Of a DNA stretch of 55,663 nucleotides, positions 34,050-52,017 are shown piece after piece. Under the pieces are notes generated by a model that did no database searches, was not told where the DNA came from, and worked only from the letters and a program-made list of their open reading frames with translations. Numbering within the stretch: position 1 is the stretch's first letter; each line of letters opens with the position of its first letter. Source of the DNA: an uncultured bacterium. GTDB lineage: Bacteria; Bacillota_I; Bacilli_A; RFN20; CAG-826. The DNA is taken from NCBI GenBank assembly GCA_949285325.1, contig CASDYZ010000032.1, positions 1 to 55,663 of the forward strand. The letters are read 5' to 3'. The translations under genes and the position numbers were made by a program.

Positions 34050-35924
34050 TTAAATTTTAGTAAAAATAATTTTATTTAAATCTATGTTAAATGTTTGCTT
34101 ATTTCTTTTAAAACAAGTGTCGTCCTTACCAGCTTTTATACAGATATAATCTTCAAAGCAATCTAAATTTGCGTAAAGTAAAGTGTTATCACCTAGACTA
34201 TCCTCGTTGACACATTTAAATTTCATACATTGATGCTTATTGATTTCTTTTCTTTTATTTACTGGCGTAAAAGCATCATAAGGAATAAATAAATTATATT
34301 CACCTTCATTTAAAGATAAATCACCAATTAACTTAAAATTACCAAAGATTATCTCATTTAAGCCTTTCTTATTTTTCTTAACTAAGCACTTAGTTGTGTT
34401 AGAAATAAATTCAAAACGTGAAACAATTCTATTTTTTAGATTCTCGTCATATAAAGTGATATTTTCTAAAGGTATATATAATTTGATTTTTTCTCCTTCT
34501 TTGTATTCTCCCTTATTAAATTTTACTGCGATATAAGATTTTTTGTGCATAAGAGAGACGTAGAGTAATGACTGTTCTTTAGATTGCTCCACTATCTCAA
34601 TCTTTGCGTCTAAAACTAGATCATCATCTTTACCTTTTTCAAGTTTAAAGGCATTTGTTGGTATCTTTATTAAAATATCGTGACTGCCTCTAAATTCAGG
34701 TAATACTTTATTTTTATCTTCTTCATTTAATTTGATATCGACATTAGCGAAACTAACGACACCTTTATCGTAGTCAATCTTACTTTTTATATAATTTTCA
34801 CTCGATATACCTGAGATTCTTCTCTCATTATCTTTGTCGAATAAATGGACGTGTCTAGTGTGGAATTGGACGAAGATTTTATCTCCTTCTTTTACTTCTT
34901 TTCTCCCGTCGAGTTTAACCACAAGCGGTATGTCAGTATTTTCGATTTGAGTGTAACAAATAATTTCACTACCGAGTTTTTCAATAACGTCAACGATGAC
35001 AGGTACCGCATCTTCATCATCTTCATTCACTTCAAATATTTCTTCAGGTCTAATACCTAAAATAATATCTTTACCGATGTAAGAATATGAAATTAATTGG
35101 TGAATAGTATTGTCGTGAATATGAACTTTAAAAGTAGAATCATTTTTATTTATTACACCGACATATTTATTACCTTCTTTTAATAATTTTGCATTGAATA
35201 AATTCATTTGCGGTGAGCCTAAAAATGATGCGACAAATACATTTGCTGGATGATCGTATAAATTAGAAGGGGTATCGACTTGTTGAACGACACCATTTCT
35301 CATAACGACGATAATTGTACCCATCGTCATCGCCTCAGTTTGATCGTGAGTAACATAGACAAATGTCGTTTTAAGACGTCGGTGTAATTTTGTGATTTCA
35401 CTCCTCATCGACACTCTTAATTTCGCGTCCAAGTTTGAAAGGGGTTCATCTAACAAAAATACTTTAGGCTCTCTAACTATACTTCTACCAAGTGCAACTC
35501 TTTGACGTTGACCACCAGAAAGAGCTTTTGGTTTTCTAGAAAGATATGGTGTTAATCCTAATATTTCCGCTGCATTTTCGATTCTTTTTTTGATTTCATC
35601 TTTTGGGACTTTTGCCATTTTTAAACCAAACGCAATATTGTCGTAAACTGTCATATGTTGATAAAGGGCATAATTTTGGAAAACCATCGTTATATCTCTA
35701 TCCTTTGGAGATACATCATTGACTATTTTATCATCGATATATAAATTGCCAGATGTAATTTCTTCTAGCCCTGCAATCATTCTTAGAGTAGTTGATTTAC
35801 CGCATCCACTAGGACCGACAAAAACGACGAATTCATTATCTTTAATTTCAAGATTTAAATCGCTTACCGCTTTTACTCCCCCTTCATACACCTTGTAAAT
35901 ATGTTCAAATTTTAAGCTAGCCAT
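34050..35924 (-). CDS. MsmK/UgpC-type sugar ABC transporter ATPase with long C-terminal extension
   Basis: Energises import through the permeases at 48787-50636 (inference from co-location). Residues 1-240 form the ATPase: Walker A GPSGCGKST near residue 39, Q-loop VFQNYALYQHM, signature LSGGQRQRVALGRS, Walker B VFLLDEPLSNLDAKLR and H-loop VTHDQTEA. A TOBE/OB domain follows to about residue 370, with the GIRPEEIFEV and FQFHTRHVHLFDKDNERRI-type ending. Normal MsmK stops there; this one has another 250 residues that look like additional OB-like strands (repeated IKLYIPLENITLYDENLKNRI and YNLFIPYDAFTP). Elongated MsmK versions occur in mycoplasmas. It is the last gene of the fructan locus, 3 bp after the DUF624-like gene. 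Confidence 0.9.
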   Translation of the reverse strand: MASLKFEHIYKVYEGGVKAVSDLNLEIKDNEFVVFVGPSGCGKSTTLRMIAGLEEITSGNLYIDDKIVNDVSPKDRDITMVFQNYALYQHMTVYDNIAFGLKMAKVPKDEIKKRIENAAEILGLTPYLSRKPKALSGGQRQRVALGRSIVREPKVFLLDEPLSNLDAKLRVSMRSEITKLHRRLKTTFVYVTHDQTEAMTMGTIIVVMRNGVVQQVDTPSNLYDHPANVFVASFLGSPQMNLFNAKLLKEGNKYVGVINKNDSTFKVHIHDNTIHQLISYSYIGKDIILGIRPEEIFEVNEDDEDAVPVIVDVIEKLGSEIICYTQIENTDIPLVVKLDGRKEVKEGDKIFVQFHTRHVHLFDKDNERRISGISSENYIKSKIDYDKGVVSFANVDIKLNEEDKNKVLPEFRGSHDILIKIPTNAFKLEKGKDDDLVLDAKIEIVEQSKEQSLLYVSLMHKKSYIAVKFNKGEYKEGEKIKLYIPLENITLYDENLKNRIVSRFEFISNTTKCLVKKNKKGLNEIIFGNFKLIGDLSLNEGEYNLFIPYDAFTPVNKRKEINKHQCMKFKCVNEDSLGDNTLLYANLDCFEDYICIKAGKDDTCFKRNKQTFNIDLNKIIFTKI

Positions 35925-35927
35925 AAA

Positions 35928-36824
35928 CTATTCTCCTTTACTTTTGTCTAGACCTTTGTCAATTAATTCCAATGAATATTTTGAATTGATATGTTTGTCA
36001 AAGACGTGATAGGCGTAGAGGCTAAAAGAAATAGCCGAATGGGAAAAACCATAAAACACCAACAACGCCAAAAAAATAAATTGCATTATTAATAAAGGAA
36101 TAAAAAATGTTCCTATAATAAATAACATACTGACGATGACCATCAATAAATTTGATGGAAGTAAAATAATTGATAACAATAAATTATTTTTTGTAGTCGC
36201 AATAAATTTAAATTTATAAATAGAAGCACCGCAAAGAACAAAAAGAGAAAAACTTGCGACGATAACAAAAATAATACTTAGTAAAATAATTAAAATTACT
36301 TTGAGAAAAAATGGTATCTCATCCACTATCGGATAAAAATATATATTCATAAAGTATATGAATGTATAGATGCTAAAAACTACACCACTTAAAAGCGATG
36401 ATTTAATGTTAGATTTTACTCCATTAAAAAAGTCGCTCCACAAAAACAAATCACCTTCTTGAAACACCATCTTTTTAGCGACACTAAATGTTCCGCCTAA
36501 ACCGATAAAAGATAGGATAAATAAAGGTATAGAGAATAAATACTGTAGACATATGAGAGAAAAATTTTGAAATAGAATCATCTTCTCGTCTGGATTTGTA
36601 ATTAGAAATTGTTCTTTTGCGTAATTCATATATACGCCCCAAAGAAATGTAAAAATAACTAGAGGCAGGAAAAATAGACATGTAATTAAAGATAATAAAA
36701 TTAATTTAGAAAATCTATTTTTAAAAATATCAAAATACGCTTTGAAACGATTAGAAGGAAGCTTGCCGTCATTATTTTTAGAATTATCTTTATTGAAGAA
36801 ATTATAAAAACTATTTCTTTTCAT
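35928..36824 (-). CDS. YesL/DUF624-like membrane protein
   Basis: A 298-residue membrane protein with five to six helices. The N-terminal FKAYFDIFKNRFSKLILLSLITCLFFLPLVIFTF resembles the start of YesL-type DUF624 proteins, as does GGTFSVAKKMVFQEGDLFLWSDFFNGVKSNIKSSLLSG, the conserved cytoplasmic part. These proteins are nearly always encoded beside CUT1-type oligosaccharide ABC transporters, which fits here between fructokinase (4-bp overlap) and the ATPase gene. Their molecular role is not established; a regulatory or accessory role in transport is the usual suggestion. Confidence 0.75.
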   Translation of the reverse strand: MKRNSFYNFFNKDNSKNNDGKLPSNRFKAYFDIFKNRFSKLILLSLITCLFFLPLVIFTFLWGVYMNYAKEQFLITNPDEKMILFQNFSLICLQYLFSIPLFILSFIGLGGTFSVAKKMVFQEGDLFLWSDFFNGVKSNIKSSLLSGVVFSIYTFIYFMNIYFYPIVDEIPFFLKVILIILLSIIFVIVASFSLFVLCGASIYKFKFIATTKNNLLLSIILLPSNLLMVIVSMLFIIGTFFIPLLIMQFIFLALLVFYGFSHSAISFSLYAYHVFDKHINSKYSLELIDKGLDKSKGE

Positions 36825-37744
36825 TTTTTATTAACTCCTATAACTTCTTCTAAAGGAGGGACGACACCAATCGCACCTTTTTTTGTTGTGGCTTTTGCCC
36901 CAACAATATTAGCAAATCTAAGCAAATCCCTAATATTTTCTTCATTTTTTAATGCATTTTTATTATTATCAACCTCATATAAAATAAAAGAATAAAATGC
37001 ATCTCCCGCCCCGGTTGTGTCGAGTGCGTCAACTTTTATACTATCGACTTTTATAAGTTTGTCATCGTGATATAAAGCTGAACCTAATTTACCCAAGGAG
37101 ACAAATACATATTGATTTTTATTAAATAAATATTTAAGACCTTCTTCATATTTTTTAACGTTTGATAACAATAAAACTTCTTCTTCACTAACCTTGATTA
37201 AATCGCACTTCTTTATGACATCGATATAATATTGTTTAGATTGATTGGTATCAAAGAAGATATCGCTTCGATAATTGACATCAAAGGATATTTTTATATG
37301 AGGAAATCCTTTAAAATAATCAATCGCGTTTTTGATAAAATCTCGACCTTTTTCACTAGATAAACATAAAGAACCAAAATGAACTATATCAACCTCATTT
37401 AAATTAACATTTTCAATTAGTTCATTTAAATCAAATTGATAATCTGCCCCATCTTCTCTTATAAATTTAAAAGATCTCTCCCCCTTGTCTAAATTGACTA
37501 AAGCAATAGTCGTCTTTAAATTGTTCATTTTTTTAATAAACGTCTTCTTAAAATTTTGTCTAGAAGCAAAATCAATTAATTGTTCACCATATTTATCATT
37601 ACCAACTACACCATTAAAAATAACATCGCCTCCAAAAAAAGCGATATTTGACGCGACATTAAAAGGCGCGCCACCTGGGCGAACTTCTTCTATACTGCCA
37701 TCTTTAAATACATCGACTAATATTTCTCCAATAATCAATATCAT
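36821..37744 (-). CDS. scrK: PfkB-family fructokinase
   Basis: Phosphorylates fructose to fructose-6-phosphate. The 307-residue protein opens ILIIGEILVDVFKDG and carries the first PfkB signature in GGAPFNVASNIAFFGG, the ALVNLDKGERSFKFIREDGAD substrate region, FDVNYRSDIF, VSEEEVLLLS and the second PfkB signature DALDTTGAGDAFYSFILYE with the catalytic aspartate of GAGD. GGAPFN and the D-x-N-x-R motif are typical of fructokinases rather than ribokinases. Its place in a locus with three GH32 beta-fructosidases supports fructose as substrate. It overlaps the next gene by 4 bp and lies 2 bp after the regulator gene. Confidence 0.92.
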   Translation of the reverse strand: MILIIGEILVDVFKDGSIEEVRPGGAPFNVASNIAFFGGDVIFNGVVGNDKYGEQLIDFASRQNFKKTFIKKMNNLKTTIALVNLDKGERSFKFIREDGADYQFDLNELIENVNLNEVDIVHFGSLCLSSEKGRDFIKNAIDYFKGFPHIKISFDVNYRSDIFFDTNQSKQYYIDVIKKCDLIKVSEEEVLLLSNVKKYEEGLKYLFNKNQYVFVSLGKLGSALYHDDKLIKVDSIKVDALDTTGAGDAFYSFILYEVDNNKNALKNEENIRDLLRFANIVGAKATTKKGAIGVVPPLEEVIGVNKK

Positions 37745-37746
37745 TA

Positions 37747-38703
37747 TTAAGCTGTTTCTCCTTTGACAAATGTAGTAGGAACGATGATTTTGGATTCCAC
37801 TTCTTCTTTGTCAATTCTTTTAATGAGAGTAGTTACAACTTGTCTAGCCATATTATTTAAATCTTGCTTAATGGTGGTAAATGTTGGATTTTGAATCCAA
37901 TCTCCCATACAACCATCGTAAGTTATTATTTTTAAATCGCTATTATAATTTAGTTCTCGCGCTACCCTATAAATGGCAAAGCCGAATGAATCGCTCGTCG
38001 TGAATACTGCGTCCAACTTTTTATATTTGTTTAAAAAACGTTTTGAGTGAACATATTCCTCACCGTGCCTAAAATCATCATAAAATATGTATTTTTCTAA
38101 ACCTAATTCATCACAGACATCATTATAGGCGTTATATCTTTCTAAAACTTCAGATGAGACGCTTGGCTTACCACCAATAAAACCGATATTCCTGCAGTTT
38201 AAAGAATATAAATATTTAATCGCTTTAAATGTCGCATCGTAATTATCAGAAGTTATACAAGGCACATTTTTACCAAAAAGTCTATCGATAGTCACAATCG
38301 GTAAAGAAGAATCAAAATTGTTATATTTGTTATGCGTGATAAAAATAATCCCATCAACTTGATTATTTTTTAACATCTTGATGAATTCTTCTTCTCTTTT
38401 TCTATTGTTGTCTGAATCTGTAATCAATAATTTATATCCAAATTCATGCGCGACATTTTCAATACATTCACTAATCTTTGCAAAGAAAGGATGGGAAATC
38501 ATCGGCACACATAAAGCGAGTATAAATGAACGATTAAGTTTAAGTGCTCTACCAAAAGAATTTTGTTCGTAATTTTCTTGTTCAATTACTTTTTTAATCC
38601 TTTCAGCGGCATCTTTAGATACATAACCATTGTTTAAATATCTCGATACTGTCGATTTACTCACTTTTGCTAAATTTGCAATGTCGATGATTGTCTTTCC
38701 CAT
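37747..38703 (-). CDS. LacI-family regulator of the fructan locus
   Basis: A 318-residue repressor. Residues 1-50 are the LacI DNA-binding domain: TIIDIANLAKVSKSTVSRYLNNGYVSKDAAERI, where SKSTVSRYLN is the recognition helix and the hinge follows. The rest is a periplasmic-binding-protein-like sensor (ILALCVPMISHPFFAKISECIENVA, DGIIFITHN, VTIDRLFG, IGFIGG, DAVFTTSDSFGFAIYR). It sits inside the locus between a surface binding protein and fructokinase. The operator-like site at 51999-52012 upstream of the first gene fits the family's centre-CG palindromes, so it likely controls the whole operon in response to sucrose, fructose or an oligofructoside. Confidence 0.92.
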   Translation of the reverse strand: MGKTIIDIANLAKVSKSTVSRYLNNGYVSKDAAERIKKVIEQENYEQNSFGRALKLNRSFILALCVPMISHPFFAKISECIENVAHEFGYKLLITDSDNNRKREEEFIKMLKNNQVDGIIFITHNKYNNFDSSLPIVTIDRLFGKNVPCITSDNYDATFKAIKYLYSLNCRNIGFIGGKPSVSSEVLERYNAYNDVCDELGLEKYIFYDDFRHGEEYVHSKRFLNKYKKLDAVFTTSDSFGFAIYRVARELNYNSDLKIITYDGCMGDWIQNPTFTTIKQDLNNMARQVVTTLIKRIDKEEVESKIIVPTTFVKGETA

Positions 38704-38724: not shown

Positions 38725-40722
38725 TTAACCTCTATTAGTTTTTTTCTTCTTACTAATATAGATTAACGCAAATGCGATGATACTTAAAGAAAGAACACCA
38801 ACAATTATGATAGTTGAATCTTTAATTGATGAACTTAATTCAAGAGTCGCACGCAATCCATTTGTTGAAAGTTGAGAATTAATATAACTCATCGTGTCAC
38901 TTACTTCACATAAATCAATCTCGGTAGTATAAACTTCGCCACAATAAGAATAATCCATGGAATTAGAAACAATTTCTTGTGCTTGTTCACTTAAATTTGA
39001 GTAAGTAGTTTCAAGCAATTGTTTAACTTCATTATATAATTCAGTATTGTTATCATTTATCATCGAACAATATGTGAAACCATTCTCAGTACTTCTTAAA
39101 GTAGAATAATATTGACTCATGAAATCATATGCTTCTTTCATCACATCGTTTGATGTATTTTCATCATCTAAAGTACTATCTTCTACATATATATCTTTAA
39201 CGACACCATAAAGATTAACATTTTCTCCACTAATAGTGCCATTTTGATTGATAACACCAAGTTTAAATGATGGAAGAGTGTCATAATATGTAACTAATTC
39301 GTCAAAGAATACACACCCCCAATTTCCACCAGTACGGTAGTCAGCTAACGCGATGATAATTTTTTGTCCTAAATAATCACTTAAATCGATTATGTGTCGA
39401 GTCATGGTGTTTAATCGTCCGTTGCCTCTCACTGAATCAACATTATCAAAGAATGCTTTATTAGTTACTTCATAAAGTAGTTCATGATTATCAGCGTTTA
39501 AAACTTGAACTGCAGATGAATTGCCCGCCATCTTGATAGAAATTAATCCGTTTCCGCTCAAAGTGAAAGCTGGAGACAATAAACGATATTTTTCAGTTTC
39601 AACAAAGCCGTTATCCCAACCTCGATAGAATTTATCGTCAGTTTTGTTGTACGGCATGTGTTCAGCCCACGGAGCGTGTTCTTCGCTACTAATCGCGTTT
39701 GCGAATGGAATGTAATAAGGTTGATTTAAAGTGGTTGTAGGGACAGTCTCGCCTTCTTGAACTTCTCCACTATATACAACATCTCTTGCGCTAAAATTGA
39801 GATCATACGCCCAGTCTAATAAATGTCCATCTTCAAAGCCTTCATTTAAATTGGTGATATTTGTTGAATAAGTGCCGTCTTCATTAATTGTTAATCCATT
39901 TGCTCTAACTACACTATATTCATCAGCAGTTCTATAAACATCGATAATATAATCTCTTGCTCTAGTATTATAATTAGCATTCGCGTCAAGCCCTTCACTT
40001 GGAATAGCGTGTTCACCATCATAAGGATTATATGGATAATGTGTAGTGTTATTTAAATCAATTACATTTCTTAAATCTTCGATATGGGCGGCTACACTCT
40101 TAACGACATCATCGATATTTTGATTGACTTGAAGCGCGCCAAAAGTCACCATACCAAAACCACCAGTTCTTTCATCAATTATTTGTAAATATAGTTGTTG
40201 TCCTTGATATTTACTTGGAATTTCAACAACTTTTGTAATCATATTGACAGAAAGATATGGATCATTAAATTGATCGTTAGTGATAGTTTTTACAACTTCA
40301 TCACCTTCAACTGTTTTAATTTCAACTCTATTTTGTGTAGTTTCGCCATTCACTTGAGGTCTTCCGCCTAAGGTGAAGGTGATGTAATCTTCAGTTTGTA
40401 CGAACGACTTGCTTGTAATTGTACCAGTCCAAGTTTCATGTCTATTACCATCGTAGAAATTATCCATCGCATTAAAATAACGATAATTCCAGAATGTACC
40501 ATATCTATCAGTCGTATACGCCGATGGTTTTAATTCCTCTTGCCCTTCACTAAGCTGTGTGCTATGAAAAGTGAAATTTGCATCGTTAAAAGGAATATAT
40601 TTTTCCACTTCTTCTTGAGCAGATACATTTGTTGTAAGAGGGGCATCAACAGTCATAAGTCCGCCGAAGGCAAATGCGGATATAGCCATTAAGCCAGTGC
40701 CTAAAAGTAAATACTTCTTCAT
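38725..40722 (-). CDS. surface-anchored fructan-binding protein candidate (CBM38-like modules, no catalytic domain)
   Basis: A 665-residue exported protein. Residues 1-35 are a signal peptide (AISAFAFGGLMTVDA, cleavage after NVSA likely). Two beta-sandwich modules follow: one around residues 45-195 with FTLGGRPQ and LYLQIIDERTGGFG, one around residues 285-480 with NEGFEDGHLLDW, WDNGFVETEKYRLLSPAFTLSGNG, IIDLSDYLGQKIIIALADYRTGG and VFFDEL. These patterns recur in the neighbouring lipoprotein and in an extracellular GH32 and resemble CBM38. A helical segment with four cysteines (about 540-620) precedes a single membrane helix (TIIIVGVLSLSIIAFALIYIS) and a KKKK tail, so it is anchored by the helix. 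There is no LPxTG motif. It has no GH32 motifs, so a glycan-capture role is inferred. Confidence 0.7.
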   Translation of the reverse strand: MKKYLLLGTGLMAISAFAFGGLMTVDAPLTTNVSAQEEVEKYIPFNDANFTFHSTQLSEGQEELKPSAYTTDRYGTFWNYRYFNAMDNFYDGNRHETWTGTITSKSFVQTEDYITFTLGGRPQVNGETTQNRVEIKTVEGDEVVKTITNDQFNDPYLSVNMITKVVEIPSKYQGQQLYLQIIDERTGGFGMVTFGALQVNQNIDDVVKSVAAHIEDLRNVIDLNNTTHYPYNPYDGEHAIPSEGLDANANYNTRARDYIIDVYRTADEYSVVRANGLTINEDGTYSTNITNLNEGFEDGHLLDWAYDLNFSARDVVYSGEVQEGETVPTTTLNQPYYIPFANAISSEEHAPWAEHMPYNKTDDKFYRGWDNGFVETEKYRLLSPAFTLSGNGLISIKMAGNSSAVQVLNADNHELLYEVTNKAFFDNVDSVRGNGRLNTMTRHIIDLSDYLGQKIIIALADYRTGGNWGCVFFDELVTYYDTLPSFKLGVINQNGTISGENVNLYGVVKDIYVEDSTLDDENTSNDVMKEAYDFMSQYYSTLRSTENGFTYCSMINDNNTELYNEVKQLLETTYSNLSEQAQEIVSNSMDYSYCGEVYTTEIDLCEVSDTMSYINSQLSTNGLRATLELSSSIKDSTIIIVGVLSLSIIAFALIYISKKKKTNRG

Positions 40723-40739
40723 TTTATTTTTCCTCCTTT

Positions 40740-42947
40740 TTAATTACTTCTAGCTTCGAGCCATGGGAGTCTAACTTCCTCGCCGTTTTGAATGACGACG
40801 TCATAGTGCTCGTCTATGTTGATTGTTTGTTCGTGATAGACGTTAATATCATCAAAGAAAGCGACTGCCCAACTTTCTGAAATAACTTCATCACAAATTT
40901 CTATATAAAGGTTTTCACCTAAATATTGACTTAAATCAGCTACATATGTATTCATCGTGGCTAATCGACACCCTTGAGAAATATAAGGGAAATTAACATC
41001 TTGGAAGGCGTAGTTACGATACTCTGCAACAACCTCATTTGTTTCATTTTTAACAGTTAATTTTGAGGAACGTCCACCTAATTTAAATGTGATTTGCCCG
41101 CTTCCATTAAGTGTGAATGTCGTTGACTTTAATGTGTATCCTTCTACTTCAACACTACACGCATTCCACCCGTTAAAGAAATATGTGCCACTTTTATTAA
41201 ATGGGATGGCTTCAGCCCACCAAGTATCATCGCTACAAATCGCATTATCAGTGTTAACATTGCCGTCTAATACGAGCCAACCATCTAAATTACCAGTTTC
41301 AAAACCACCATTTTCAATTTGATTATCGTAAGTCAAATTATCCAAGACATTTAATTTAATAATGCTATCTGTAAAATTGTCGAATGCATCACTAATCTTA
41401 ATATTGACAACGTACTCTCCAACATTTAATTCAAAATTAGAATAGTCACCTTCTACTTCATTTCCGTTATATGTAACAGATGTAATTTCTGTTTTTAAAT
41501 CGTTAGTCGCAGTGTAATCATCACTGTAAGACAATTGTTTAAACAAAACATTTAAATTCATCGTTTGAGGAGAGATTGTTAGTTCTTGTGCTACTCCATT
41601 TGTCTCATCAATGACAGGTGCTTGTCCACCTAGTGGGAAAGAAATACCGCCGTTATATGCGTTTATATAAGCATTTTTTGCTACGTCGTCAGCGACTTCA
41701 TTCGCCCAATTTCTAAGTGACGCTACTCCGTCAATCACTTCTTGTTCACTCAAATTAATGACGAAATCATCAACTTCAATAAATGCAAATCCACCAGTCG
41801 ATACATTATCTACGATTGTGAAATATAAAGTCTTACCAATATATTCACTTAAATCTACATAATAACGGATGAGATTTTGGGCTAAATCTGGATCTTTAAA
41901 AGCGGTGTTATAAACTTTTAATAATTCTTCACCGGTCTCCCCGTCATTAACCGCGACATATGTGCCAGGTTGAGAAGCCGCGCCGATCATAAATGTCGCA
42001 TAAGATTTACCATTTCCTTTATCGATTACTTTAAATCTTTCACTTCTCATTTTACCCGTTTTATCTTCACCACTTGAAAGGTTAGATAAGAAGTATTCTC
42101 CCTCTGCGTGATATTGTCTAGTTTCCCAATATAAACTTGAAGAAGGTACAATCATACTGTCATTTAAGAACGCTTCTCCCGCGATTGGTAACCAATACGA
42201 TGTATCGCCTGTTTCAAATCCCCCATTTCTAAGCGACTCTACTGGAGTAGAAGCGTCGATATCAGCTTGTTGATACATGAGAAGTTGATCTTCTCTTTCA
42301 ACTAGTGCATCGTTTCTTTCTTGTGCGTTCATCAACAATTTAAAATCGTCAAGATTAAAGAAAGAATAATCTTCATAATCAGATTCAGTCGCATTATCAG
42401 TTATCTTAATGTAAATATCTTTTTCAAGATGTTCTCTTAAATCGACGACATGACGAATCATGATAGACCTAATAGTCGTGCCATTAAAATCAGTATTAAC
42501 TAATTTTGTATATTCAGTTTCTCTATCGCCATCTAAATAAAATGTTAAAGGAACATCGTCTTTACCGACTTCATAAAATTCAATATAGCAATCTTCAGTA
42601 TTAGACGCAGCCCCTAATTTTAAGGAGATATTAGCTATCCCACCTAAATGAAATGGGTCACTTGTTAAAGTACCAGTAAATGCTGGTAAAGACATGCTTG
42701 CCCCGGCGTACATATATTCGCCTACTTTTTCACTTTGTTGCCCATCTTCAAAACTAGAAGCATTAGAGACATCTTCTTCACTAAAGCCACCTAAACCTCC
42801 AACAGTCCAACCAACTAAACCATCTTCAAAGCTACCATTTTTGATTTGTGTGTCATATTTAGGCGTCTCTTCACCACTCTCTTCACAACCAGTGACGAGA
42901 AAAGGAATTAATAACAATAAAGGTACAATAATCTTATTTTTCATCAT
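40740..42947 (-). CDS. fructan-binding lipoprotein candidate with three CBM38-like modules and an Ig-like domain
   Basis: A 735-residue lipoprotein; the ATG at 42947 (or 42944) has an AAAGGAG site, and a longer in-frame ORF to 43073 lies inside the GH32 gene. The lipobox is LVTGC (Cys21). Three similar modules occupy about residues 30-205 (NGSFEDGLVGWTVGG, HVVDLREHLEKDIYIKITDN), 235-405 (NGGFETGDTSYW, YYVDLSEYIGKTLYFTIVDN) and 550-710 (NGGFETGNLDGWLVLDG, YVADLSQYLGENLYIEICDE). An Ig-like segment lies between the last two. These match my memory of CBM38 modules found in cycloinulo-oligosaccharide fructanotransferase and Firmicutes GH32 enzymes. No catalytic motif is visible. It overlaps the intracellular GH32 gene by 14 bp and precedes the other surface protein by 17 bp. 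Confidence 0.75.
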   Translation of the reverse strand: MMKNKIIVPLLLLIPFLVTGCEESGEETPKYDTQIKNGSFEDGLVGWTVGGLGGFSEEDVSNASSFEDGQQSEKVGEYMYAGASMSLPAFTGTLTSDPFHLGGIANISLKLGAASNTEDCYIEFYEVGKDDVPLTFYLDGDRETEYTKLVNTDFNGTTIRSIMIRHVVDLREHLEKDIYIKITDNATESDYEDYSFFNLDDFKLLMNAQERNDALVEREDQLLMYQQADIDASTPVESLRNGGFETGDTSYWLPIAGEAFLNDSMIVPSSSLYWETRQYHAEGEYFLSNLSSGEDKTGKMRSERFKVIDKGNGKSYATFMIGAASQPGTYVAVNDGETGEELLKVYNTAFKDPDLAQNLIRYYVDLSEYIGKTLYFTIVDNVSTGGFAFIEVDDFVINLSEQEVIDGVASLRNWANEVADDVAKNAYINAYNGGISFPLGGQAPVIDETNGVAQELTISPQTMNLNVLFKQLSYSDDYTATNDLKTEITSVTYNGNEVEGDYSNFELNVGEYVVNIKISDAFDNFTDSIIKLNVLDNLTYDNQIENGGFETGNLDGWLVLDGNVNTDNAICSDDTWWAEAIPFNKSGTYFFNGWNACSVEVEGYTLKSTTFTLNGSGQITFKLGGRSSKLTVKNETNEVVAEYRNYAFQDVNFPYISQGCRLATMNTYVADLSQYLGENLYIEICDEVISESWAVAFFDDINVYHEQTINIDEHYDVVIQNGEEVRLPWLEARSN

Positions 42948-44373
42948 TTTCTTCTCCTTTAGTTTCTTTATATTCATATTTAATAAAATTAGTAATATTA
43001 ATATTGCTATCATTTTCGTTATCAAAACAAACACCATATTCTCCACATGCAAAATATAGTGCGGAGAACGCATATTTATTGTTGATTAATATTTCGATAC
43101 ATGAATGGTCAATCAATATGTCGAAATGAAGTTTATCGACACCTTCATCAATCAATATTTTTCTAACATTCGCATCACTTCCATCTTGATTAAAAATATA
43201 TTCAAAAGAATCTTCTCTAGAAAAAAGTATAGTTTCATCACTTTTATCGATATAAATATAAAAACCTTTACCATTAGAATTATATAGGCTGATAATCCCA
43301 TTTTTATCGATTTGAATATTAAATTTATAACGCACTATTGGGCTATTTGACTTAAATTCGCATTGATTTTCAACTTTAAAGTCGTCTATTTGATTTATAT
43401 TTTTTACATATTTTTTTAATCCGTCATCATTAAAATATTGATAGATATAATTGTTTTCTACTTTTAAGATTCTAGGCACGATAAACTGACCTGCATAACC
43501 TAAAAATTCGCTAGGGAAATTTCTATCCCACATCGCTTGCCACGCGACGAGGTAGTTAATATTGTCGTGTCTTAAAGTTTGAGAAGCATAAAAATCAAAA
43601 CCATAATCGAGTTGTATCTCGTCGCTTGTAGGAACAAATTTAATGTTGTCAAAATCAAATTTACCAATTAAAGCGATTGTTGAATGTATGTTTTGATATT
43701 TATATTTAGAAGTAGATTTTTTATACTGTGGGGAACAGAATAAAATACATTCGTCATTTTGTTCATTTAAAAATAAAATGTCGCAGCATTCAAGCATGCC
43801 GTTACTTAAATTATTCATTTCAAAAATTGGTCCTAGATAGGTGACATCCTTAAAATCTTTAGTTCTAAATAAGATTAGATGTGAACCATCTTCTTTGACT
43901 TTCGCGCCGACAAGTACATAAAAATAACCATGACGGAAAAATATCTTAGGGTCTCTAAAATTATTAATATCATATATAGAAGGCAAATTATGCCTATCTA
44001 TAAATGGATTTAAATCGCTTTTTATATAATTGAGTCCATCAGTAGAAGAGGCGATACACTGCGTCTGCACTTTATCTTTAACACCTGTATAAACTAAATA
44101 ATGTTTTTTATCAATTTCAGTCGCGGAGCCAGAAAAACATCCATCGCCATTATCGTAAGGTTTATCAGGACATAAAGCGATACCCACTTCATCCCATTTA
44201 ATTAGATCTTCACTGACAAAATGTAGCCAGTGCATCGGCCCCCATTTAGTGTCAAATGGATTGTGTTGGGCGAAAAGATGATATTTTCCATCGAAGAAAG
44301 AAAAACCATTAGGGTCATTAATCCATCCTTTGTGGGCGGTGATATGAAAAATAGGTCGATAATCTTTATTCAT
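42934..44373 (-). CDS. intracellular GH32 beta-fructosidase (sucrose/oligofructoside hydrolase)
   Basis: A 479-residue GH32 enzyme without signal peptide, so it works in the cytoplasm on imported sucrose or short fructans (phosphorylated or not). The five-bladed propeller motifs are present: nucleophile aspartate in KGWINDPNGFSFF near residue 17, HNPFDTKWGPMHW, CFSGSATEI, transition-state aspartate in NNFRDPKIFF and general acid glutamate in GMLECCDILF. The C-terminal beta-sandwich ends in FDILIDHSCIEILIN. Import is by an ABC transporter rather than a PTS, so the sugar arrives unphosphorylated and the name sucrose-6-phosphate hydrolase may not fit. It lies between the extracellular GH32 gene (1 bp gap) and the binding lipoprotein (14-bp overlap). 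Confidence 0.93.
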   Translation of the reverse strand: MNKDYRPIFHITAHKGWINDPNGFSFFDGKYHLFAQHNPFDTKWGPMHWLHFVSEDLIKWDEVGIALCPDKPYDNGDGCFSGSATEIDKKHYLVYTGVKDKVQTQCIASSTDGLNYIKSDLNPFIDRHNLPSIYDINNFRDPKIFFRHGYFYVLVGAKVKEDGSHLILFRTKDFKDVTYLGPIFEMNNLSNGMLECCDILFLNEQNDECILFCSPQYKKSTSKYKYQNIHSTIALIGKFDFDNIKFVPTSDEIQLDYGFDFYASQTLRHDNINYLVAWQAMWDRNFPSEFLGYAGQFIVPRILKVENNYIYQYFNDDGLKKYVKNINQIDDFKVENQCEFKSNSPIVRYKFNIQIDKNGIISLYNSNGKGFYIYIDKSDETILFSREDSFEYIFNQDGSDANVRKILIDEGVDKLHFDILIDHSCIEILINNKYAFSALYFACGEYGVCFDNENDSNINITNFIKYEYKETKGEENDEK

Positions 44374-44374
44374 A

Positions 44375-46429
44375 TTAATTCACCTCAATATCGTGGAAGA
44401 CACCACTGGTAAGATGTGCGCTTCCCCCTTCAGTAAAGAAAGAAATATCTTTTCCTGCTTCACTAGGAAAAATAAGCCCGCTCATCGTGTAATATCCATC
44501 ATTAATAAATAATTCAACACTTGAAACATCGACAAATATCTCAAATTTAATTTTGTTGTCGATTGGTTCAATTCGTGCATATCTGACATTTAGTTCTCCA
44601 TCGTCATCAAAGGAGTCAATATCGACACCACTGTTACGCCTATCAAATACGACCATACCTAAAAAATCATCATAGTAAATATTAGTAGATTCATTTTCGC
44701 TTTGAAGGAGTTTAAAACCAGCTTTCCCACCATTTAAATTAGATACATCAATTTCAACATTTAAATGAATTTTATCGCCTTTAACGTCTAATTTAATTTC
44801 ATTATCACTACATTCGATTTCATTCAAAATAGTCTCGTTTTGATAGTAATTTTGTATTTCTTGTATTGGTTTTTGATAAATATGATTATCTTTTAATTCT
44901 AGTTCTCTAGGCAAGGTAACTTCACCTGCATAGCCATCTATCGCACTAGGATAACTTCTCGACCACATATTCATCCACGCGAGCATTATGGTCCTATCTT
45001 CTTCTTGATAAATCTGAGTGGCATAAAAATCAAAACCTTTATCAAATTCCTCCATGTAGTCGACACCATTATCATTTGTAAATATACCGTTTTCAAAATC
45101 GAGATTACCGATCTGATAAGTGACAGAATGGATATTTTGATATGACGCTTTATCCGCGTCTCTTATAGATTGTGGAGAAGTTATAATAATGTCTTTACCA
45201 TCCATATAGGCATAATTTGGACATTCAAACATCCCGCTTCCTGTAATGGTGGAAGAATAAATACTACCTATCGTTTTCCAATTTAATAAATCGGAGGAAG
45301 AATATAAAAGAAGTTGACCTCCTTCACCTTCTAGTTTCCCACCAATCAACGCGTAATAAACATCGTCTTTAACAAATAAATATGGATCTCTAAAATCAGT
45401 GATTCGCGAATTTAGTCTCATAGATGAATCAATAACTGGGTTCATATTTCTCTTAGTGAAAGATACGCCATCAAAACTAGTGGCGAGAGCTTGTTGTTGC
45501 ACCCCTGTTTCACCTACCGCGGTGTATAGTAGATGCATCTTATCTCCATCTACCACCGCACCTCCAGAAAATACACCATTTTTATCGTAACTTTTATCAG
45601 GTGCAAGTGCGATAGAGGCATCTGTCCACTTAATTAAATCTTTACTTATCGCGTGTCCCCAATACATCGTATCCCAGCTAGGAGAATATGGATTATGTTG
45701 ATAAAACAAATGATAGTAACCATCGTAATAAACAAAACCATTAGGGTCGTTCATCCATCCTATAGTAGGCATGAGATGATATGTGTGTCTATATCTATCA
45801 TTGACTGTGTCTTTGTATTTAAGCGTGTAATTTCTCGCGTCGCTCAATAAAGTTCCATCATCTTCATTCAAAGAAGAAGATATTTCAAAATCATCGACCA
45901 TTATGTAGTTATAACCACTATTAGAAGAATCATTGTCATTAAGTTGAACATATAATTGTTCACCTATATATTCTTTTAAATCGACGACGATACGGTACAT
46001 CCTATTATTCGGTACTTCGTGATTAAAAAATTTATTACTAATTCTTGTTATTTCTTCACCAGTGTCATCTTTATGGATTGACACATAGACTAAATCAGGG
46101 TTTGCCCCTCCTCCAATCAAGAAACTAATTTTACCATTTCCTTTAAGTTTAAATGATGTTGATTTAAGTGTACCAACCGCCTCATTACCGACACTTTCTC
46201 CACTTAAATAAAAATTACCTTCGACGTGAATTTTATCTTTATTTGAATCACTTATCAAAACACAAGTATCGTTAAAAGCGTCCCCACTTATCGTCCAATT
46301 AGAAAGCGTCCCTAACTCAAAATCTCCATTGGTAAAAGTGTAAGGTTTATCACTTGAGGAAGTAGAGCAAGATGAAGAGGAGATAGTTAAAAATAAAATT
46401 AACAAAGGGGCAAATTTATTTTTTTTCAT
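44375..46429 (-). CDS. extracellular GH32 lipoprotein with N-terminal CBM38-like module
   Basis: A 684-residue secreted, probably lipid-anchored enzyme. The signal peptide ends in a serine-rich stretch with Cys21 (SSSSC), a weak lipobox. Residues about 28-185 form a CBM38-like module (TNGDFELGTLSNWTISGDAF, VVDLKEYIGEQLYVQLNDND, VDDFEIS). The GH32 domain starts near residue 210: nucleophile in GWMNDPNGFVYYDG, HNPYSPSWDTMYWGH, FSGGAVVDG, RITDFRDPYLF and the general acid in GMFECPNYAY. The C-terminal sandwich contains FEIFVDVSSVELFIN. This is the arrangement of exo- or endo-levanases and inulinases; specificity cannot be set. The gene overlaps the upstream GH32 gene by one base. Confidence 0.9.
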   Translation of the reverse strand: MKKNKFAPLLILFLTISSSSCSTSSSDKPYTFTNGDFELGTLSNWTISGDAFNDTCVLISDSNKDKIHVEGNFYLSGESVGNEAVGTLKSTSFKLKGNGKISFLIGGGANPDLVYVSIHKDDTGEEITRISNKFFNHEVPNNRMYRIVVDLKEYIGEQLYVQLNDNDSSNSGYNYIMVDDFEISSSLNEDDGTLLSDARNYTLKYKDTVNDRYRHTYHLMPTIGWMNDPNGFVYYDGYYHLFYQHNPYSPSWDTMYWGHAISKDLIKWTDASIALAPDKSYDKNGVFSGGAVVDGDKMHLLYTAVGETGVQQQALATSFDGVSFTKRNMNPVIDSSMRLNSRITDFRDPYLFVKDDVYYALIGGKLEGEGGQLLLYSSSDLLNWKTIGSIYSSTITGSGMFECPNYAYMDGKDIIITSPQSIRDADKASYQNIHSVTYQIGNLDFENGIFTNDNGVDYMEEFDKGFDFYATQIYQEEDRTIMLAWMNMWSRSYPSAIDGYAGEVTLPRELELKDNHIYQKPIQEIQNYYQNETILNEIECSDNEIKLDVKGDKIHLNVEIDVSNLNGGKAGFKLLQSENESTNIYYDDFLGMVVFDRRNSGVDIDSFDDDGELNVRYARIEPIDNKIKFEIFVDVSSVELFINDGYYTMSGLIFPSEAGKDISFFTEGGSAHLTSGVFHDIEVN

Positions 46430-48783
46430 TAATATATCCCCTCCAAATTGTTCATCACAAAACTCGATATAATACTAGAAGTTTCTATTTTTGTATATAA
46501 AGCATCAAAAGAAGAAGGATAACTCCTCAAAGATATAGTTTTTTCATTGTTAAAGACAACTTCGACACAACTTCTATCGACATATAAATCAATTTCAATC
46601 GATGAAGCATCGCTTATTTGTCCACTAAAATCTCCGCCACTCAAAGAAGAATTATTGCCATTTAAAGTGTTGACTGCCCCAACGATGTTATTAGCAGGAT
46701 CAACATAAATAGATGTATATTCACTCTCATCGCTAGTCATCCTCGTCTTAATCGTTAATGGAGAAGAGAGATTTTCAACACTTAATTTAATATTAAACAT
46801 ATCGCTACTTATGTCTTTAATATTCATGTTGATTTCATCTGCGCTTAGATTGACACCATCAAAAACTACTCCACTAGATAAATTAGAGACAACGTCATCG
46901 ATGATAGATATATTTAAATCGTTGGTGTTGGTATTATAGTTAATAACACGTGGTAAACCAACATTATGTGACCAGCCAGAACTTGCTAAATCAATAGATT
47001 CTCTCGACGATTGTAAAATTGAGAAAATAATAGTCTCACCACTCACTGGATCAATAAAACCACTTGGGCCAGTAAAGATATTTTTACCATAATCCATTCG
47101 GCGAGGATCTTTAAAATCTGGAATAAATCTAAATGTATCTTTATTAAATTTACCAATCCAATAGATGATATTATTGTCTGCGGTTGACGCGGGCGCAGGT
47201 GAAATAATAAATATCCATTTATTTGTTTCGTTGTTATTCTCATCTTTTAAAGGAAGTAGGACAGGTAACTCCCATACAGTACCGTATTTAGAGTCACTAT
47301 TATCATAATCAAAGACATGACCTTTATATTCCCAGTTATGAAAATAATCTGTTTTATTCGCATTAGTGTAATAAATGAGGGCGGTGCCTCGAGAAGAGTT
47401 TTCATCCCCACTTCCAATGATTAAATAATAATCATCACCATCTTTATAAATGTGTGGATCTCTAAATTCTCCACTTCTTCCTTGTCCACTTTCTTGAGCA
47501 ATTGCAAGCTCATCATCAATTATCCATTCAGTTAAATATGGATCAGATAAATCTTTAGGTTTAGCCATACCGACATTTTGATTTGAAACTAGACCAGAAT
47601 GAACATAATCACCAGCGGTAAAAAATAAAGTAGGTACACCATCTTTATCGTAAGTAGACGCGCCAGACCACACCCCGTCAGGACATACACTATCAGCGGT
47701 AGGGACGACAACTTCTTTTCTAGGTGTCCAATTAACCATATCTTCACTAGTTAGGTGTCCCCAACAAATACCACGCGCGTCATTGAAATATGGACCATTA
47801 GGATTGAATTGGAAAAATAAATGATAGACACCGTTATAATATATAGGGGCGTGTGGCTCATTCATCCAATGCTCGTATGGACCTCCGTGATATTGTGGTT
47901 TATATACATCAGTCGTAAGTGTATTTTGAATCCAAACATCATTAAAATTAACTTCTTTAATTTCGCCATCAACTAAACAAGTTTCATAATATTCTCTATA
48001 ATCTTTAAAAGTTAAAACTGAATCATAAAACCTAAGTTCATCTAATAGTCCAGAAATAACTCCTTCTGAACAATCTCCCGATGAGGTGGCGACAGTGTTT
48101 TTACCAATTAAAAGTGGTAAGTCGCATCCAACAATTTTAGAAGAGGCAGGTATTTCCATCCTGTTGGCGATTACACCATTGACATATAAAAGCATCTCAC
48201 CATTTACTCCGTCGAAGACTGCAAGGACACTGTTCCATTCATATTGATTTAAAGGTGTACCTTCATCATAAAGTTGATACCATCCACTTTCTGTTCCTAC
48301 TCCAAAAGTGACTTTACCATCTCTTTTGTATCCAAGTTGAAAACCAGAAGCATAACTATCATCTTTATAATATTGACTAGCAATCGCTTGTATTAAATCA
48401 TCTTTAGAATTTTGATCACTCCAATTGTACGCGCGAGGCGCAATCCAAGCGGATATAGAGAAACTATCACCTTCTACTTTATATTCACCACTATCGATGG
48501 AGGCAAAAGTAGAATAGCCATCAAACACCATCGCGTCATCAAATATCCCTTCTTTAAATTGAATGTTTATTGGTGATGGTAGGGTTTGTGATTCTAATAA
48601 GTGATAGCTCATCTTGATAGAATCTATATGTTTAGATGAATCTATTAATAGCGATTCATTATTTTCTTCAAATTTAAAATACGCTTTTAAGTTTTGTTCA
48701 TACGCCATTCCAGTAGAATTAGAACAAGAGACACTTGCCAAAGATAAAAATAATAAAAAACTAATACTCAATATTTTTTTCAT
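46429..48783 (-). CDS. extracellular GH32 lipoprotein with LamG module and atypical nucleophile motif
   Basis: A 784-residue lipoprotein with lipobox SVSC (Cys20). Residues about 30-270 form a LamG/concanavalin-like sandwich (FKFEENNESLLIDSS, DSFSISAWIAP, ELRFYDS). The GH32 domain starts near residue 298 with HWMNEPHAPIYYNGVYHLFFQFNP: the usual WMNDPNG has Glu in place of the nucleophile Asp and HAP instead of NG. The other two catalytic sites are intact: FRDPHIYKDG (stabilising Asp) and TVWELPVLLPL (general acid in WELP rather than WECP). The C-terminal sandwich ends in IEIDLYVDRSCVEVVFN. A distinct GH32 clade with NEPHAP exists as I recall; its specificity, perhaps on branched or terminal fructans, is not known to me. 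Confidence 0.88.
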   Translation of the reverse strand: MKKILSISFLLFLSLASVSCSNSTGMAYEQNLKAYFKFEENNESLLIDSSKHIDSIKMSYHLLESQTLPSPINIQFKEGIFDDAMVFDGYSTFASIDSGEYKVEGDSFSISAWIAPRAYNWSDQNSKDDLIQAIASQYYKDDSYASGFQLGYKRDGKVTFGVGTESGWYQLYDEGTPLNQYEWNSVLAVFDGVNGEMLLYVNGVIANRMEIPASSKIVGCDLPLLIGKNTVATSSGDCSEGVISGLLDELRFYDSVLTFKDYREYYETCLVDGEIKEVNFNDVWIQNTLTTDVYKPQYHGGPYEHWMNEPHAPIYYNGVYHLFFQFNPNGPYFNDARGICWGHLTSEDMVNWTPRKEVVVPTADSVCPDGVWSGASTYDKDGVPTLFFTAGDYVHSGLVSNQNVGMAKPKDLSDPYLTEWIIDDELAIAQESGQGRSGEFRDPHIYKDGDDYYLIIGSGDENSSRGTALIYYTNANKTDYFHNWEYKGHVFDYDNSDSKYGTVWELPVLLPLKDENNNETNKWIFIISPAPASTADNNIIYWIGKFNKDTFRFIPDFKDPRRMDYGKNIFTGPSGFIDPVSGETIIFSILQSSRESIDLASSGWSHNVGLPRVINYNTNTNDLNISIIDDVVSNLSSGVVFDGVNLSADEINMNIKDISSDMFNIKLSVENLSSPLTIKTRMTSDESEYTSIYVDPANNIVGAVNTLNGNNSSLSGGDFSGQISDASSIEIDLYVDRSCVEVVFNNEKTISLRSYPSSFDALYTKIETSSIISSFVMNNLEGIY

Positions 48784-48786
48784 AAA

Positions 48787-49698
48787 TTATTTTAGTCCGG
48801 TAAAACTAACTCCTTCCACGATGTATTTTTGGGCAAAAATATAGACGAGTGCGATAGGTATAGTTGAAAAAGTCAAAGACGCCATTACGACTCCAATATC
48901 TTTAGGAGAAGCAGTATTGACTAACTGTAAGAATACTTGTAGAGGTTGAAAGGCTGGGTTAGGGAACATAAATTGTGCAAAGATATATTCATTCCACTGC
49001 CCCATGAAAGTAAATATTGCTACGGTTGCAAAAATTGGTTTTGAAAGTGGGACTATCATCCTAAAAAACACTCCGACTCTCGAACATCCATCAATTCTCG
49101 CAGCTTCTTCAATCTCGATAGGCATTCCTAAAAAATATTGTCTAAACATATAAGTGTAAAATAAGGAAGCAAAACCTGGTAAAAGATAACCAATGACACT
49201 GACTGGTTCAGTGAGTAAACCTAAATAATACAAAATTAAATATGTCGGGACGATACTAGTTTCAACCGGGATAATCATCAACAATAAAATGATGGTTGTC
49301 ATCGCCTTATTGCCTGGGAATTTAAATCTAGCAAGTGCATATCCCGCTAAAGAATTTATAATTAATACCATAACAATTGTCACCGTGCAGTAGACAATTG
49401 AATTTAAAATAGAACGTCCAAAATATTCAAAAGTATCAAATAACTTAATATAGGATACAAACCATTCACTTATGTTCCATGAAGGTGGTAAAAATGTAAA
49501 GATGCTATTCATTTGAGCATACACTTGCTCGTCTGTCTTAAATGAATTTGATACCATCCAAACAATAGGGAAGAGGAAAATGAACACTAAAAAAGCACAT
49601 AGAAAAGCAATAGATATTTTTATCAACAATTTAGATATTGATATTTTCTTTTTTGGTTTATGTAAAGAATATATGCGGTTAGTATTGATGCTTTTCAT
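48787..49698 (-). CDS. sugar ABC transporter permease (MalG-type)
   Basis: A 303-residue CUT1-type permease with six helices, the second permease of the importer. The EAA motif reads EEAARIDGCSRVGVFFRMIVPLSKPIFATV near residue 205, the site that contacts the ATPase. VWMVSNSFKTDEQVYAQ in the N-terminal part, a basic Lys-rich tail before the first helix, and SLAGYALARFKFPGNKAM are typical of MalG/MsmG. It is 2 bp after the MalF-type gene and 3 bp before the LamG-GH32 gene, so it is central in the operon. The substrate is most likely fructo-oligosaccharide or sucrose. Confidence 0.94.
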   Translation of the reverse strand: MKSINTNRIYSLHKPKKKISISKLLIKISIAFLCAFLVFIFLFPIVWMVSNSFKTDEQVYAQMNSIFTFLPPSWNISEWFVSYIKLFDTFEYFGRSILNSIVYCTVTIVMVLIINSLAGYALARFKFPGNKAMTTIILLLMIIPVETSIVPTYLILYYLGLLTEPVSVIGYLLPGFASLFYTYMFRQYFLGMPIEIEEAARIDGCSRVGVFFRMIVPLSKPIFATVAIFTFMGQWNEYIFAQFMFPNPAFQPLQVFLQLVNTASPKDIGVVMASLTFSTIPIALVYIFAQKYIVEGVSFTGLK

Positions 49699-49700
49699 AA

Positions 49701-50636
49701 TTATGCTTGGTTATCTCCTCCTAATACTTTTCTTAAAGTGAGTGATATTGTCGCGATAATAAAGGTATAGAGTAAGGCGATCGCACTCGAATAACCAACG
49801 TCGCGGTATTCGACACCAGTTTTATAAATGTAAAAGGACATAGTCATAGTCGAACCAAGTGGTCCACCATCAGTCATAATCATCGGTTGAATGCAAATTC
49901 TAAAAGCACCGATAAGCATAGTTATAAAAACAAATACGAGAGTTGGCTTAATTGAAGGGAGGGTGACGTGGATAAATTGTTGCCACTTATTTGCCCTGTC
50001 GATAGAAGCGGCCTCATACATATCTTTAGATATATTTTTCAGCCCACTTAAAATGATGAGCATCTGATATCCTGCACCTTGCCAAGCAGATATAAATATG
50101 ATGCACGGCATAGCTTGATTAGGATCTTCTAAAAAGAGCGCGGGATTTGCCCCTAGTGCGAGTAAAAATGTATTTATAAGTCCTTCTTGAGAATTTAACA
50201 AATTCATCCAAAGCATTGAGGTGACCGCTAAAGAGAGCATAACCGGGACAAAAAATGCCCAACGCAAGAAAGTGTTGAAACGCTTGACGTGATTTAAAAG
50301 AAGTGCGAGTCCTAATGCAGTGCCAAATTGAAGAGGCATGACACCTAAGACAAATATCAAAGTGTTTTTAAGTGCGTTTCTAATTTCTACGTCTTCAAAA
50401 GCTCTTAAAAAATTATCAAAACCGATAAAATTAACTCTATCGAGTCTTAGCATATTCGCGTCAGTAAATGCATAAGTTAATGATATAAATATTGGTAAGA
50501 AAACAAAAATTGCCGCCAGAACGAAACACGGTAGGAGAAAAAGTATACCAGTTACTGCTTCTTTAGTATTGTATTCACTCTTACCAAATGTGAAGTGTGT
50601 TTTCTTTTTTCTAGCGACAATATTGTTAATTTTCAT
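49701..50636 (-). CDS. sugar ABC transporter permease (MalF-type)
   Basis: A 311-residue CUT1-type permease. Six helices are visible; FLLPCFVLAAIFVFLPIFISLTYAF opens the transmembrane part after a basic N-terminus. The EAA loop is MYEAASIDRANKWQQFIHVTLPSIKPTLVFV near residue 215, and the periplasmic start GFDNFLRAFEDVEIRNALKNT is typical of MalF/MsmF. It pairs with the MalG-type gene directly downstream and follows the binding-protein gene by 3 bp. The expected ATPase is the elongated MsmK-type protein at the end of the same locus. Confidence 0.94.
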   Translation of the reverse strand: MKINNIVARKKKTHFTFGKSEYNTKEAVTGILFLLPCFVLAAIFVFLPIFISLTYAFTDANMLRLDRVNFIGFDNFLRAFEDVEIRNALKNTLIFVLGVMPLQFGTALGLALLLNHVKRFNTFLRWAFFVPVMLSLAVTSMLWMNLLNSQEGLINTFLLALGANPALFLEDPNQAMPCIIFISAWQGAGYQMLIILSGLKNISKDMYEAASIDRANKWQQFIHVTLPSIKPTLVFVFITMLIGAFRICIQPMIMTDGGPLGSTMTMSFYIYKTGVEYRDVGYSSAIALLYTFIIATISLTLRKVLGGDNQA

Positions 50637-50639
50637 ATT

Positions 50640-51983: not shown

Positions 51984-51998
51984 AACTTATTCTCCTTG

Positions 51999-52012
51999 TG
52001 GGAACGATACCA
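51999..52012. promoter_or_regulatory. LacI/CcpA-type operator upstream of the fructan locus
   Basis: TGGGAACGATACCA is a 14-bp centre-CG imperfect palindrome and fits TGNNANCGNTNNCA at every fixed position. It lies 5 bp downstream of the -10 box and before the ribosome-binding site, where a bound repressor would block initiation or elongation. Whether the LacI protein of this locus or a CcpA-type global regulator binds it cannot be told from sequence. Confidence 0.75.
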
Positions 52013-52017
52013 TATAT

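Follow-up and report, generated by a model that had tools for sequence, protein, structure and literature searches.

Two enzyme-free surface proteins, here called LP and MP, are probably non-catalytic, membrane-tethered arrays of CBM38-type modules that would hold fructan for the adjacent GH32 enzymes of a cell that itself probably has no wall. Their genes lie in the window, the whole stretch of 55,663 nucleotides that was analysed, within an operon whose enzymes comprise GH32 as the sole glycosidase family, plus a fructokinase. No description of enzyme-free CBM38 arrays in Firmicutes was found in the open-access literature.

The Operon of the Window

The operon runs on the minus strand from 51983 down to 34050, with gaps between genes of -14 to 21 bp. 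Its genes follow in the order SBP, two permeases, LamG-GH32 lipoprotein, module-GH32 lipoprotein, cytosolic GH32, LP, MP, LacI regulator, fructokinase, MusI/DUF624-like membrane protein and MsmK-type ATPase. The features around LP and MP are:

51997..52013, minus strand: probable LacI operator GGTATCGTTCCCACA, half-site GTTCCCACA, directly upstream of the SBP gene
48787..51983, minus strand: ABC importer, two permeases and the SBP lipoprotein (sequence, domain matches)
46429..48783, minus strand: LamG-GH32 lipoprotein (domain and sequence comparison)
44375..46429, minus strand: GH32 lipoprotein with one N-terminal module of the LP/MP family (domain matches, blastp)
45872..46342, minus strand: module of this GH32 lipoprotein, residues 30-186 (blastp)
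42934..44373, minus strand: cytosolic GH32, no signal peptide seen (sequence, domain matches)
34050..38703, minus strand: LacI regulator, PfkB fructokinase, MusI/DUF624-like membrane protein and MsmK-type ATPase (domain matches)

Where the window has the probable LacI operator, relatives carry near-perfect palindromes (TGTGGAAACGTTCCCACA / TGCGGGAACGTTCCCGCA). The catalytic core of a Paenibacillus CFTase-type enzyme shares about 35% identity with the LamG-GH32 lipoprotein (46429..48783). The MsmK-type ATPase (34050-35924) has 624 amino acids and a C-terminus about 250 residues longer than usual.

Architecture and Anchoring of LP and MP

LP and MP are built as follows:

40740..42947, minus strand: LP, a lipoprotein of 735 aa that has an Ig-like spacer besides its three CBM38-type modules and lacks any enzyme domain (ORF, RBS, domain searches)
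42876..42947, minus strand: LP lipoprotein signal peptide, lipobox LVTGC (sequence)
42330..42857, minus strand: LP module 1, class A, residues 31-206 (blastp, profile, tree)
41751..42239, minus strand: LP module 2, class A, residues 237-399 (blastp, profile, tree)
41343..41630, minus strand: putative Ig-like spacer of LP, separating module 2 from module 3, assigned by eye, no Pfam match
40827..41330, minus strand: LP module 3, class B, residues 540-707 (homology, tree, structure model)
38725..40722, minus strand: MP, a surface protein of 665 aa that comprises two modules, a stalk of about 150 aa and a C-terminal membrane helix (sequence, domain searches)
40120..40602, minus strand: MP module 1, class A, degenerate, residues 41-201 (blastp, profile, tree)
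39280..39861, minus strand: MP module 2, class B, residues 288-481 (blastp, profile, tree)
38746..38832, minus strand: MP C-terminal membrane helix, then a KKKK tail, no LPXTG (sequence)

The start of LP was placed at 42947, which has a good ribosome site; a longer open reading frame reaching 43073 was rejected as an artefact that runs into the preceding GH32 gene. Neither protein matched any enzyme family in Pfam or NCBIfam. The earlier note had described five modules on two proteins devoid of enzyme motifs, one anchored by lipid and the other by a C-terminal helix with a basic tail and no sortase motif, and had seen the same module fused to one GH32. This description was borne out at every point, with three modules in LP, two in MP and one in the GH32 lipoprotein. 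Both anchors are conserved, the lipobox being kept in most LP orthologues and the C-terminal helix in most MP orthologues. MP module 1 departs from the shared plan proposed for the modules (NGxFExGxLxxW...FDD), having lost the NG/E/W start and the FDD end.

One Module Family with Two Classes

In all-against-all blastp searches, the six window modules reached E values down to 1e-30, each being joined to one or more of the others at E below 1e-8, and a profile of the six matched exactly six places in the whole genome, all at this locus. By sequence comparison, the six modules are homologous, well beyond chance. A genome scan using LP alone as the query returned no matches, and no PDB chain was matched by LP or MP at the sequence level.

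A midpoint-rooted tree of 205 modules, with moderately supported deep branches (0.74-0.97), divides the family into classes A and B. Class A unites LP modules 1 and 2 and MP module 1 with the module of the GH32 lipoprotein and, from Paenibacillus, the C-terminal modules and the last of the N-terminal ones; LP module 3 and MP module 2 fall into class B, as do the leading modules of the Paenibacillus enzymes. LP and MP each carry at least one module of either class, and MP module 1 is placed together with the first module from most of its orthologues. Across fructan loci, a W577/E579/Y-or-F583/N584 cluster (LP numbering) is retained in class B, with W577 present in 88%, E579 in 74% and N584 in 78%; these three residues are much rarer in mannan loci, whose modules partly differ in the cluster. 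W577, E579 and N584 of class B are candidate contact residues.

Relationship to CBM38

CBM38 corresponds to residues 32-389 of the Paenibacillus (Bacillus) macerans CFTase and comprises two beta-sandwiches that bind levan and inulin (PMC10076258). A scan of named genomes for the modules yielded 77 loci, and those from Paenibacillus, Neobacillus and Halalkalibacter place the modules inside GH32 enzymes of 1310-2266 aa, as N-terminal copies plus one at the C-terminus. LP module 3 is 48% identical to an N-terminal module of a Paenibacillus CFTase-type GH32 (E 8e-52), and profile-profile comparison with hhalign matched the window profile to the Paenibacillus N1 modules with a probability of 100% (E 7e-42). 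The two N-terminal modules of the Paenibacillus nuruki enzyme (L130) span residues 68-234 and 255-388, and the LP and MP modules were assigned to the CBM38 type because this layout coincides with the published CBM38. The proposal of the earlier note that the modules are CBM38-like is supported by these comparisons, which were made by proxy, with Paenibacillus relatives of the same layout in place of the founding CFTase (AAG47946). LP and MP carry both classes, and one module has been modelled as a beta-sandwich, but compared with the tandem pair of CBM38 the two classes are separated or reordered.

Two other families were considered. CBM66 was ruled out by sequence, as the module profiles gave no match to the SacC chains 4azz, 4b1l and 4b1m. 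CBM66 was also missing among the structural matches listed for LP module 3, to which no weight is given as evidence. The CBM66-like part of a 1,188-aa GH32 in related loci matches the same levanase CBM66 chains at 3e-10. A second type of fructan locus encodes a GH32 of 1,000-1,300 aa that has a CBM66-like domain and ends in a membrane helix and a basic tail (L078 2329-5895 and orthologues). Pfam CBM_4_9 (PF02018), weakly matched by 14 of 60 modules, was rejected: the best score, for the whole of LP, was 23.3 bits, under the curated cut-off of 25.9 bits.

Predicted Fold

A model of LP module 3, built from an alignment of 60 modules, predicts a CBM-type beta-sandwich (pLDDT 94.9, pTM 0.89). An earlier model from the six window modules alone reached a pLDDT of 55, and its structural matches were disregarded. 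The best solved matches to the LP module 3 model include a CBM that binds porphyran (Z 12.7, with 129 residues superposed at 3.0 A), CBM61 (Z 12.2), CBM4-2 (Z about 11.6) and CBM16 (Z about 11.2), and nearly the same scores are reached by unrelated proteins that share the sandwich. The predicted fold fits carbohydrate binding and is no proof of it.

Association with GH32 and Distribution of the Pair

The module was found in 39 of 279 genomes of the order. GH32 accompanies it in 36 of these 39 genomes and occurs in 41 of the 240 genomes without the module (Fisher p 2e-20, relatedness ignored); in at least 33 of the 39, module and GH32 share a contig. The association is weaker in an evenly drawn sample of the phylum, with GH32 in 14/19 genomes with the module versus 93/373 without it (p 2e-5, relatedness again ignored). 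The pair of an LP with three or four modules and an MP recurs in two distinct operon layouts, and in gut Clostridia LP-like four-module lipoproteins adjoin GH32 and importer genes.

A Probably Wall-Less Host

The genome of the host (97.8% complete) has no penicillin-binding transpeptidase (PF00905), sortase, MurG C-terminal domain or FtsW/RodA. Among the 279 genomes of the order, PF00905 occurs in 30 and FtsW/RodA, above cut-off, in 21, of which six and two, respectively, belong to the host's own family. An assembly gap is an unlikely cause of the missing genes, since nearly every genome of the family lacks them as well. The loss of peptidoglycan genes in the gut lineages RFN20 and RF39 has been described in a published survey (PMC7301438). 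The absence of these markers indicates that the host is most likely a wall-less bacterium, and to call the system Gram-positive, as the earlier note does, is probably mistaken as far as cell structure goes.

The C-terminal membrane helix occurs in 8 of 30 module proteins from loci of Bacilli-type MAGs, compared with 0/61 module proteins in Clostridia and 0/26 in Paenibacillus and its kin, the groups being those of recorded taxon labels and wall genes having been checked in only part of the Bacilli-type genomes. Every module homologue examined in these sets lacks LPXTG. With sortase also absent from the genome, LP and MP are excluded as sortase-anchored wall proteins. G273, a relative from the same order that has PBPs and is walled, carries a four-module LP, and MP is absent from the stretch read.

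Related Modules in Loci for Other Glycans

The module family is broader than fructan. In G199, G198, G262 and several named MAGs, modules are fused to a GH125 alpha-mannosidase and adjoin GH130, phosphomannomutase (PMM) and mannose-6-phosphate isomerase (PMI) genes. Such mannoside loci also encode a lipoprotein with two modules; within the order, they have in addition a C-terminal-helix protein of two modules. This second, mannoside type of locus, with GH125, GH130, DUF1861, PMM and PMI, combines the module-GH125 fusion with the pair of lipoprotein and C-terminal-helix protein (L086 9750-13746, L087 4264-5949 and L091 3913-7955). In another context, of dextran type, a four-module enzyme-free lipoprotein adjoins GH66 and GH97 genes (L167 3221-11483), and this protein is possibly a dextran-capture version.

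Calcineurin-like/purple acid phosphatases fused to two modules were also observed (L091 12693-15470 and L102 6721-10131), which suggests a phosphorylated glycan substrate such as phosphomannan. Single-module lipoproteins of about 280 aa adjoin a LacI-type regulator in L185, L186 and L187, with no GH in view.

In the 205-module tree, mannan-locus modules form one clade per class, with supports of 0.90 and 0.94. Since mannan-locus modules are set apart in this way in both classes, ligand specificity appears to follow the locus. Homologous modules are used by GH125/GH130 and GH66 loci; therefore, homology alone does not fix the ligand. The fructan capture proposed in the earlier note finds support in the CFTase-type homology, the predicted fold and the operon context, but the specificity would come from the locus and the module subclade and not from the presence of the module as such.

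Proposed Role and Alternative Explanations

According to the favoured reading, the LP array would project from its lipid anchor and the MP array from its membrane helix, the latter presumably staying close to the membrane. Acting together with the surface GH32s, LP and MP may hold fructan chains (inulin and/or levan) by several weak contacts near the two lipoprotein GH32s, much like the action proposed for the Bacteroides levan SGBP (PMC7618045). Fructan binding by the modules, like every step from there onward, is a prediction. Freed fructo-oligosaccharides would enter via the importer formed by SBP, permeases and MsmK, whereupon the cytosolic GH32 would cleave them and the fructokinase would phosphorylate them, with the operon under the presumed control of the LacI-type regulator.

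It is also conceivable, if rather unlikely, that the modules are general, exchangeable glycan-capture units and that the locus sets a ligand for LP and MP other than simple inulin or levan, perhaps a fructan that is branched or mixed, or a polysaccharide of host or bacterial origin. The related clades in mannoside (GH125, GH130, PMM, PMI) and GH66/GH97 loci, again with enzyme-free lipoproteins, point in this direction. However, the separate mannan-locus clade in each class makes specificity look locus-bound, and the window locus offers GH32 and fructokinase as its only enzymes. A role mainly as structural spacers or as docking platforms for surface enzymes, with little glycan binding, is less probable still. 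Beta-sandwich repeats frequently act as spacers and MP module 1 is degenerate, but the conserved class B cluster, kept across fructan loci and partly different in mannan-locus modules, argues for a binding function, as do the fusions of the same modules to GH32, GH125 and phosphatases and the published binding by CBM38 (PMC10076258).

That LP and MP are adhesins on the cell surface that attach to host mucus or to other cells, and are merely located in the operon, is very improbable. Tandem beta-sandwich surface proteins can be adhesins, and no analysis here indicates such a role; against it stand the tight operon with GH32 and importer, the recurrence of the arrangement in Clostridia and Bacilli, and the presence of the same modules inside Paenibacillus GH32s.

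Beyond fructan capture by LP and MP, a wider proposal can be put forward at even chances: that a widespread family of enzyme-free, multi-module CBM38-type capture proteins exists outside Bacteroidetes, that its subclades match the glycan that each locus serves (fructan, mannoside, perhaps dextran), and that in wall-less gut Bacilli it takes the form of a lipoprotein and a C-terminal-helix protein that sit directly at the membrane and make up an equivalent of SGBPs at that level. If true, wall-less gut bacteria with 1-Mb genomes would have a means to retain soluble fructan with neither outer membrane nor wall, and CBM38, known from few enzymes, would extend to many binding proteins that differ in their ligands. 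Because the fructan and mannoside subclades come in pairs, specificity can be tested directly by comparing modules and a few residues.

Comparison with Known Systems

The CBM38 of the P. macerans CFTase belongs, by CFTase-type homology, to the same module family, with a beta-sandwich fold and both classes A and B in the N-terminal set of CFTase-type enzymes. In LP and MP, by contrast, the modules are enzyme-free, spread as 3 + 2 copies and membrane-anchored. CBM66 of Bacillus subtilis SacC is likewise a fructan-related CBM of GH32 systems, but its sequence is unmatched by the LP and MP modules. Precedent for enzyme-free capture outside Bacteroidetes is provided by Ruminococcus bromii Sas6 and similar non-catalytic starch-binding surface proteins, which differ from LP and MP in their starch ligand, their module families and their walled cell.

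In Bacteroides, the levan SGBP is a non-catalytic surface lipoprotein beside a surface GH32 and an importer, and it has been proposed to recruit the polymer (PMC7618045). The earlier note had compared the system to SusD as well as to SusE/F. SusD is a poor comparison because neither SusC nor an outer membrane is present, and no SusD-family domain was matched in LP or MP by Pfam or NCBIfam, the importer of the operon being an ABC system. The comparison with SusE/SusF and the levan SGBP holds as one of function: LP, too, is a lipoprotein that has no catalytic domain, carries CBM-fold modules in tandem and is encoded in a glycan locus, although the window system works with an ABC importer, in place of SusCD and an outer membrane, and places a second protein on a C-terminal helix. 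SusE/F or an SGBP is a fair functional analogy for LP and MP.
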